DNA of 64,000 nt from Planctomycetia bacterium (GTDB taxonomy: Bacteria; Planctomycetota; Planctomycetia; Pirellulales; JALHLM01): NCBI GenBank assembly GCA_034440135.1, contig JAWXBP010000009.1:1-64000 (forward strand). The letters run 5' to 3'. Numbering within the stretch: position 1 is the first letter of the stretch; each line of letters starts with the position of its first letter. Both the position numbers and the translations under genes were made by a program. Positions 3,550 through 53,666 of this stretch are shown one piece after another. The notes beneath the pieces are model-generated. The model saw only the letters and a program-made list of their open reading frames with translations, did not search any database and was not told the DNA's origin.

Positions 3550-3614
3550 AAGCCCAGGGAAGGCCCTCCAAGTCGAATTTGTCATCCACGACATCGGAGG
3601 CCTTCCCTGGGCTT
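3550..3614. repeat. 65-bp palindromic element, copy 1 of 4
   Basis: The ends are AAGCCCAGGGAAGGC and its exact reverse complement, with the inner stem extended by CCTCC/GGAGG around a bulged base and a non-conserved loop. It begins 45 bp downstream of the aspS stop. Identical outer arms recur at 27035, 49243 and 53602, and each copy is also exactly 65 bp. Confidence 0.9.
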
Positions 3615-25600: not shown

Positions 25601-26878
25601 ATGAGATTTCGCAGCTGTGTTTTGGCCGTTGGCGGCCTGTTGACCCTGACGAGCGCGGCGATCGCGCAACAAGGTCGAGGTTATGGATCACCAGGCCTGT
25701 TGGCCGTGCCTGAATCATCGCCGAGCTACGTGAACCCGTGGCGCGGCCAGGCGTATCCCACGAGCGCCCAAATCGAGGAACCGAGCCCGGCCGATATGGT
25801 CCCGCCGATTCCCGAAGCCCCCGTCGACACCGGCAGCATGTACGACGAAGCCCTGAGCAACGACGACTACAGTGGCTGCGGCGATTGCTGCACGCCTTGC
25901 ACGCCACGGTGGTATGTCGCCGCGGGCGGACTGTACATGAATCGTGACGGCTCGAACGACTTCTGGACGACGTACGAAAACAACGTGCCGTTCAACCAGA
26001 TGATGCATTCGCCGGACACCGATTGGAACGGCGGCTTCTTCGCCACGATTGGGCATCGCTTCGGCTGCTGCTCGCAGCATGCGATCGAAGGCAGCTTCTG
26101 GATGCTCGATCCGCTCGAAGGTGAGAACCAGGTCGGTCGCACGGGCGCTAATACGTTGGCGACGCCGATTGACCTGGGCGACGTCACGATCGGCCCAAAC
26201 CCGGCGACGTTCTACTTCGACGACGCGCAAACGCACCGCATCACGCGGCACGATGAGATCTATAACGTCGAGGTGAATTATTATTACGACCTGTTGCCGG
26301 CCGCCTACAATCGCGCATTCAGCGCTCAGTTGTTGATGGGCGTGCGTTACTTCCGCTTCGACGAGAACCTGGTGTTTAGCTCGGTGATCAACGGCAGCAC
26401 CTTCGGCGCCAACGGCGGCGCCGACGAGGCTCACCTGGGCATCCGAGCTGAGAACAATCTGGTCGGCTTCCAGATCGGCACGCGGTTGAACTATTATCTG
26501 ACGCAGGACTTGAGCTTCTTCGCGACGCCTAAGTTCGGCATCTATGGGAACGACATCCAGCAGCGCGTTTCGCTCGCCAGCGGCGACGGCTTCAACGGTG
26601 TGGCGGCGCCGGTCGGCGGCCCGGTGGGCGGCTTCCCGTTCGAATCGAGCAAGCGTGACGTATCGGTGCTCGCGGAATTGGACCTGGGAGTGAATTGGCA
26701 GTTGACGCAGCGTTGGAGCGTGTTCGGCGGCTACCGCCTGGTGGCGGTCAGCGGCCTGGCCCTCTCCGACGAACAGATCCCGGCCTTCCTGGTGGATTAC
26801 CCGGCGATCAACGACATCGACAGCAACGGACACCTGTTGTTGCACGGCGGATTCGCCGGTGTGCAATACGCCTATTAA
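25601..26878 (+). CDS. BBP7-family outer-membrane beta-barrel protein
   Basis: 425 residues. A signal peptide (CVLAVGGLLTLTSAAIAQ) is followed by a linker with YSGCGDCCTPCTPRWYVAAG and a series of amphipathic beta strands rich in aromatic residues and Asn (GGLYMNRD, IGHRFGCCSQHAIEGSFW, VEVNYYYDLLP, LLMGVRYFRFDE, VGFQIGTRLNYYLTQDLSFF, WSVFGGYRLVAVSGLAL). The chain ends GGFAGVQYAY, with an aromatic final residue as usual for BAM-assembled barrels. BBP7-like proteins are abundant outer-membrane proteins in Planctomycetes. Strong AAAGGAG ribosome-binding site. A clear terminator follows. A role as porin or adhesin is inferred. Confidence 0.88.
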   Translation: MRFRSCVLAVGGLLTLTSAAIAQQGRGYGSPGLLAVPESSPSYVNPWRGQAYPTSAQIEEPSPADMVPPIPEAPVDTGSMYDEALSNDDYSGCGDCCTPCTPRWYVAAGGLYMNRDGSNDFWTTYENNVPFNQMMHSPDTDWNGGFFATIGHRFGCCSQHAIEGSFWMLDPLEGENQVGRTGANTLATPIDLGDVTIGPNPATFYFDDAQTHRITRHDEIYNVEVNYYYDLLPAAYNRAFSAQLLMGVRYFRFDENLVFSSVINGSTFGANGGADEAHLGIRAENNLVGFQIGTRLNYYLTQDLSFFATPKFGIYGNDIQQRVSLASGDGFNGVAAPVGGPVGGFPFESSKRDVSVLAELDLGVNWQLTQRWSVFGGYRLVAVSGLALSDEQIPAFLVDYPAINDIDSNGHLLLHGGFAGVQYAY

Positions 26879-26933
26879 GACGAGCATCCTGGAGAGATTT
26901 TTCAGCCCACAGAAATCGGCTCGGTCCCCTTCG

Positions 26934-26975
26934 TCGCCCCTGGTCGCAAAATTCGCGGCCAGGGGCGATTTTTCG
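26934..26975 (+). terminator. Rho-independent terminator after BBP7 gene
   Basis: TCGCCCCTGG at 26934 pairs perfectly with CCAGGGGCGA ending at 26968, and is followed by TTTTT. Confidence 0.9.
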
Positions 26976-27034: not shown

Positions 27035-27099
27035 AAGCCCAGGGAAGGCCTCCCAAATCGTGGGCGATAGCAATGACTTCGAGGGCCTTCCCTGGGCTT
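27035..27099. repeat. 65-bp palindromic element, copy 2 of 4
   Basis: The outer arms AAGCCCAGGGAAGGC and complement are identical to the other copies; the inner loop is unrelated. It lies downstream of the BBP7 terminator and upstream of the HAD gene. Confidence 0.9.
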
Positions 27100-49242: not shown

Positions 49243-49307
49243 AAGCCCAGGGAAGGCCCTCGGAGATTCAGCTATCCCCGATAACTTCGGTGGCCTTCCC
49301 TGGGCTT
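49243..49307. repeat. 65-bp palindromic element, copy 3 of 4
   Basis: The outer arms AAGCCCAGGGAAGGC and complement are identical; the interior is unrelated. It starts 39 bp after one stop and ends 35 bp before the stop of the convergent gene. Confidence 0.9.
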
Positions 49308-53601: not shown

Positions 53602-53666
53602 AAGCCCAGGGAAGGCTGCACAAGTCTGTCCGTCGGCAGACGACTATTGCAGCCTTCCCTGGGCTT
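53602..53666. repeat. 65-bp palindromic element, copy 4 of 4, terminator-like
   Basis: The outer arms are identical to the other copies; here the inner stem is GCTGCA/TGCAGC, a compensatory change against copies 1-3 (GCCTC/GCCCT). The 3' arm runs into TTTTTT, so this copy could act as a transcription terminator 39 bp after the HTH gene. Confidence 0.9.

Follow-up and report, generated by a model that had tools for sequence, protein, structure and literature searches.

Dispersed 64- to 67-bp palindromes in a planctomycete genome, probably REP-like elements mobilised by a dedicated HUH-type transposase

Results

Palindromes of the window and of the genome

The window—that is, the whole stretch of 64,000 nucleotides analysed here, from contig C9 of the 7.29-Mb draft genome G000—contains four palindromes of 65 bp, together with a separate hairpin ahead of the second one. 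The flanking bases are those immediately to the left and to the right of each element.

3550..3614: element copy 1, 65 bp, consisting of the arm AAGCCCAGGGAAGGC, a 35-bp interior and the arm GCCTTCCCTGGGCTT; flanks T and G
26933..26969 (+): terminator-like canonical hairpin carrying a T-run, located past the gene that ends at 26878 and ahead of copy 2
27035..27099: element copy 2, 65 bp; flanks C and A
49243..49307: element copy 3, 65 bp, located where two genes converge; flanks C and A
53602..53666: element copy 4, 65 bp, with the variant inner stem CTGCA..TGCAG; flanks T and T

All four copies have the exact 15-bp arms, and 100 shuffles yielded no such match. Over the 7.29 Mb of G000 we counted 86 copies with exact ends, the reversed-pattern control giving none, plus at least 22 imperfect copies, for a total of at least 108. 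The DNA of G000 was fetched in stretches and the copies were searched by similarity to one arm; in the resulting sample of 888 kb around copies we found 99 paired elements, of 64 (10), 65 (62), 66 (26) and 67 bp (1), with perfect arms in 77, and, allowing up to one mismatch, just one arm without a partner. An earlier reading, made from the window's sequence only, had taken the length to be exactly 65 bp, which figure is right for the four copies of the window and has to be widened to 64–67 bp, mostly 65, for the genome. That same reading had proposed a genome-wide search, which search returned many copies with a narrow length range and a biased position, rather than the few copies of variable length without positional bias that it had named as evidence against itself.

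The stem comprises 16 bp and is followed by a conserved mismatch, position 17 being paired in a fraction of 0.19 of the copies versus 0.45 after shuffling; farther inside, the inner stem pairs at 0.625 versus 0.569 in shuffles (sd 0.013), and beyond it lies a variable loop. The compensatory change noticed in copy 4 was verified, and such covariation reaches the outer arms as well: seven imperfect pairs carry one change per arm, mostly matching and keeping the stem, as exemplified by GGGCAGGC with GCCTGCCC. At the base of the stem, the −1 and +1 bases were Watson–Crick complementary in only 3 of 120 instances (p = 2e-11), the prevailing types being C/A or T/G (66), T/T or A/A (31), and C/T or A/G (15); in G016, a genome of another family, the flanks of the 65- to 67-bp elements were complementary in 2 of 23, a count made by eye that is suggestive only (p = 0.09). 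Among the 99 copies no target duplication of 3 bp or more was present, chance alone giving 1.7 at 3 bp. The orientation of the interior did not predict the flank type, and an Rfam search of the window returned tRNAs only.

Some elements exhibit partial tandem duplications (L068:2832-2990 in G000; L141:2049-2157, L237:999-1113 and L240:998-1113 in G016), in which one arm is repeated along with some of the interior and, in certain cases, the flank (CCGGTC in L240, for example); these are possibly footprints of processing or slippage. In addition, a second family of palindromic repeats, CTAGCCCGACGCGCAAGCGAGGG...CCCTCGCTTGCGCGTCGGGCTAG, is represented by four pairs in the 888 kb of G000:

L060:3755-3873: second-family pair
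L064:17802-17858: second-family pair
L090:9120-9194: second-family pair
L100:10009-10082: second-family pair

In the genome G015, a 106-bp element with terminal inverted repeats of about 28 bp that contain GCGCAAGCCGAGGGAA (L048:1501-1606 and L054:1501-1606) apparently resembles both palindrome families.

Position relative to genes

According to our own simple gene caller—which is a limitation for all the gene positions given here—the stop codons nearest to copies 1 to 4 of the window are 45, 156, 39 and 39 bp away, with a further stop 35 bp off on the opposite side of copy 3. The 99 copies of the sample are distributed among tandem (42), divergent (32) and convergent (22) gene pairs, a weak ORF (1) and contig edges (2), so that effectively all are intergenic, with only 1 of the 99 inside a low-scoring predicted ORF. 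Their density per 10 kb is 15.8 in convergent gaps, 5.7 in tandem and 8.0 in divergent ones, convergent gaps being favoured about two- to threefold; stop-adjacent copies have a median distance of 28 bp, and within tandem pairs 35 of the 42 copies are nearer to the stop than to the start (p = 1.5e-5). The statement that the elements sit close behind a stop codon, at 35–157 bp, agrees with the window and stands genome-wide as a bias; as a rule it fails, since 32 of 96 copies are located between divergent genes with no stop adjacent.

Occurrence in other genomes

Of the 397 genomes of the order, only three have the identical exact ends: G000, its congener G001 (29 copies) and G016 (24 copies). 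The covariance model that the sequence-only reading had recommended, for its part, turned up related elements, their arms differing, in six more genomes, including 28-bp forms AAGCCCAGGGA...TCCCTGGGCTT and forms of 71 to 106 bp; the E-values of that model are rough, and most of the genomes compared are drafts. Short-spacer palindromes of the type AAGCCCA-N-TGGGCTT, most often 28 bp long overall, occur commonly within the order, with 204 occurrences versus 34 of the reversed pattern, summed over 58 genomes.

The G000 and G001 genomes are about 86–88% identical. Ten orthologous element pairs were taken from the exact copies of G001, a biased sample whose selection itself ensures identical or near-identical arms; in those ten, interior identity in whichever orientation fits better ranges from 71 to 94%, and the flanks differ widely. 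Two of these pairs match far better with the interior inverted (0.83 versus 0.64 and 0.86 versus 0.69 in the two orientations, the baseline for unrelated interiors being 0.65, sd 0.06), which inversion could come about through re-insertion, through in-place processing by the enzyme, or, as the hairpin is replicated, through template switching. A less biased comparison, starting from the G000 copies, found the element present at 5 and absent at 7 of 12 testable orthologous G001 sites, and in the shared copies the G001 arms were often changed. Of the window's copies, copy 4 is absent from the orthologous site (L221), where a repeat of the second palindromic family is found instead, and the locus orthologous to that of copy 2 (L215) has no arm motif, which case we counted as the seventh absence. 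The empty G001 sites miss more than the element, and none is clean, so that the presence–absence pattern could stem partly from deletion.

A candidate transposase gene flanked by the elements

The sequence-only reading had also called for a search for a REP-type transposase in the genome, and a gene of the HUH type, flanked by the element in G000 and in related genomes, was indeed found outside the window, among the genes situated between adjacent copies:

L082:6661-7209 (contig C181 of G000): ORF of 182 aa, with element copies 27 and 20 bp away on its two sides

The protein contains the motifs QHVHLL (the HxH pair) and YILAH (Y-x3-H). Its sequence link to known transposases is weak: Pfam gave no match, the REP_Tyr_transpos model NF047646 scored 15.6 bits (E = 0.011), below its cut-off of 80, and a profile search produced a weak match to the TnpA of ISDra2. 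The AlphaFold2 prediction for one homologue (mean pLDDT 87.5, pTM 0.81) had as its best PDB matches in Foldseek the TnpA proteins of IS200, ISDra2 and IS608 and the REP-bound TnpA_REP 4er8, with probability 1.00; all 26 PDB matches at E ≤ 0.001 were TnpA, likewise with probability 1.00, and the TM-scores were only about 0.4–0.6. Across the homologues the HxH is invariant, and the tyrosine and the Y-x3-H motif (Y[IV]xxH) are nearly so. The predicted fold is that of HUH enzymes of the IS200/TnpA_REP type, with a putative catalytic tyrosine.

The association of this gene with palindromes recurs across genomes. G016 has a single homologue (60% identity), which is placed exactly between two element copies of that genome, as is likewise the split gene of G021, and the homologues in G016, G021 and G030 adjoin local AAGCCCAGGG palindromes; next to those in G050, G014, G011, G018 and G029 the palindromes, whole or partial, have different arms. 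Scanning 84,980 species yielded 60 related loci, nearly all in planctomycete metagenome-assembled genomes (MAGs). Among 21 good homologues from other planctomycetes, 17 have a hairpin upstream, 13 downstream and 11 on both sides; of 780 control positions, only 2.7% have hairpins on both sides (p = 2e-11). The gene-adjacent unit with other arms is also dispersed, with 16 matches in G050 and with 37 and 33 in two Gemmataceae; the reversed controls and the remaining genomes searched had none. Across 58 genomes, the transposase and the R1-detectable elements co-occur (p = 0.001). In G001 (83% complete) no transposase was found, though dozens of element copies are present.

More distant homologues adjoin the palindromes CCAAGCCGGCGGC and CCAAGCCGACGGC (L154:2034-2095 in G029; L148:1425-1478 and 2130-2181 in G018), hinting that the pairing of palindrome and gene is wider than the close transposase family. 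The annotated Pfam Y1_Tnp genes, which we considered as partners too (5 in G000, 3 in G001 and 9 in G016), were not accompanied by the exact arm in the loci retrieved, so that they do not stand out as partners. Distinct from the candidate is also a Pfam Y1_Tnp gene of about 130–150 aa that has strong matches in all three genomes, with none of the palindromes nearby:

G000:C231:5487-5828: separate Y1_Tnp gene
G001:C204:3781-4122: separate Y1_Tnp gene
G016:C23:18171-18512: separate Y1_Tnp gene

Discussion

Relation to known systems

The arrangement recalls the REP/BIME/REPIN sequences with their TnpA_REP (RAYT), such as the E. coli REPtron (PMC8266576, PMC3116915): dispersed intergenic palindromes, a single-copy flanked gene of the HUH type, a hairpin with a conserved mismatch, a bias towards gene ends, and C/A and C/T flanks resembling the published CA and CT cleavage sites of REPs. 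The definition of REPs as intergenic, high-copy repeats of about 20–50 nt is matched in copy number and location, the single hairpin of 64–67 bp being somewhat longer here and measuring 28 bp in relatives or other families; and an HUH/Y1 gene adjacent to copies of a dispersed repeat, which defines a REPtron, is present. In contrast to REPs, however, the elements have no GTAG (GTGG/CGTC) foot, their outer bases being AAGCCC/GGGCTT, a complementary pair at both ends, with no GTAG in the adjacent flanking bases either; and the enzyme contains Y-x3-H instead of the Y-x3-NP of TnpA_REP (class 2), with NF047646 below cut-off. The published TnpA_Y1 classes carry Y-x3-Q, Y-x3-NP or Y-x4-Q (PMC6006769). 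A foot at both ends is shared with the double-foot REPs of TnpA_Y1 subclass 2.4 (PMC6006769); class 3, which is alike in being enriched in Planctomycetes and in having atypical flanking structures in high copy, possesses a CnGA foot and the motif YV[VI][AENY]EQ (PMC6006769) in place of AAGCCC and Y[IV]xxH.

A tyrosine-transposase gene flanked by inverted repeats capable of forming dispersed families is likewise found in the TIRYT/TIRtrons, including those of Rhodopirellula baltica (PMC3733652), many of whose repeats contain GGGGWSAS and most of whose enzymes have a C-terminal helix-turn-helix (PMC6006769). By eye, the AAGCCCAGGGAAGGC arms and their relatives lack GGGGWSAS, and no such helix-turn-helix was seen; the elements may nevertheless be linked to the R. 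baltica repeats. With IS200/IS605 elements (IS608, ISDra2) the system shares the predicted fold, the HxH, the terminal hairpins and the lack of target duplication, while differing in having one gene per genome with many hairpin-only copies and in Y-x3-H versus Y-x3-Q. The histidine of Y-x3-H presumably stands in for the metal-binding glutamine of IS608. Since the GTAG foot and the class motifs are missing, we assign the family to no published class; it would work like a REP/TnpA_REP system, and some published repeat may match an arm. Literature searches for planctomycete tyrosine transposases with palindromes retrieved only PMC3733652 and PMC6006769, and searches of open-access papers for the arm sequence gave unrelated papers only, among the matches listed.

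A model of mobilisation, and the other readings

We propose, with a probability of about 0.8, that the 64- to 67-bp palindromes are elements of the REP kind, non-autonomous and dependent for their movement on a dedicated HUH/Y1-type transposase; and the suggestion that an element maintained by its structure is mobilised as REPs are gains from the copy number, the intergenic location, the covariation, the presence–absence differences and the flanked gene. In this model the elements would move, or would have moved, as folded single strands, and the single-copy enzyme of contig C181 would recognise and cut them, for which it would have to see the 15-bp AAGCCC... arms as a perfect stem, with an unpaired flank at the base and the conserved mismatch past the arm. 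Selection for recognition would keep the arms constant, with the interior left to drift, and insertion would occur without target duplication, leaving the element within a CA/TG, TT/AA or CT/AG dinucleotide. Single-stranded hairpins are the substrates of TnpA_REP and of the IS200-family enzymes, the enzyme of E. coli requires a mismatch in the REP stem, and the bases of the hairpin foot serve as a guide for cleavage at CT or CA (PMC8266576, PMC6006769); the mismatch at the stem base, the inner mismatch, the absence of duplications and the C/A and C/T flanks fit that scheme. The dinucleotide would then be the cleavage site, though the flanking bases could instead reflect a target preference.

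That the elements are intrinsic terminators, or hairpins stabilising 3′ untranslated regions, held by selection at gene ends, would account for the preference for convergent gaps and for the short distance past stops, as well as for the several positions conserved between species and for the enrichment of downstream T-runs at least 4 long (21 of 80 ends behind a stop versus 12 of 118 other ends). As the main role, which the sequence-only reading had offered in the form of 3′ RNA processing or termination, this explanation is nevertheless unlikely. One third of the copies are between divergent genes, some of these at orthologous divergent positions in G001, and that third speaks against a role as terminators only; moreover, most ends lack the T-run, copy 2 is already preceded by its own canonical terminator-like hairpin, a stem would suffice where an identical arm is kept in more than 70 copies and in another family, and the cognate HUH gene is left unexplained. 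Some copies behind genes may secondarily be terminators.

The palindromes could otherwise be sites for an architectural or regulatory protein with palindromic recognition, the HUH-like neighbour being incidental, in favour of which are the exact arms around a drifting interior at orthologous places. We regard this as quite improbable: the arms almost never occur singly, both being needed at an overall 64–67 bp, the occurrence is sporadic (3 of the 397 genomes), and in several genomes the gene is flanked by the local palindrome whatever its arm sequence. As for miniature elements (MITEs) of a cut-and-paste (DDE) insertion sequence sharing 15-bp terminal inverted repeats, the short, dispersed copies with a variable interior do resemble these, and yet the lack of target-site duplications of 3 bp or more, the HUH-like nature of the flanked gene and the finding that each copy beside that gene is a complete 65-bp palindrome, and not a single arm, largely refute such an origin, which we hold to be extremely unlikely. 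A long transposon ending in single arms was sought as well, and the one unpaired arm of the 888 kb means that no long element with these ends exists in the sample.

Within the preferred reading of enzyme-mobilised elements, a further step is conceivable, though doubtful: that the proteins constitute a separate HUH class, confined to the Planctomycetota as searched, with a histidine for the metal-binding glutamine of IS200 enzymes, that flips interiors in place on double-ended AAGCCC hairpins. By such in-place re-processing the enzyme would enforce the arm sequence, the interior being free to change.

Significance

The partnership between REPs and transposases was already known; a variant without the GTAG foot or the published TnpA_Y1 motifs appears to be new. 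How REPs and TnpA_REP spread and how enzyme and repeat recognise each other are open questions (PMC8266576), for which the present family, where one group of enzymes is associated with similar outer bases (AAGCCC) and with the rest of the arm wholly changed between genomes, supplies naturally matched pairs of enzyme and hairpin as material for specificity experiments. The finding also provides a likely function for a gene family with no Pfam match—a transposase previously unnamed—and accounts for a class of abundant intergenic palindromes in planctomycetes.
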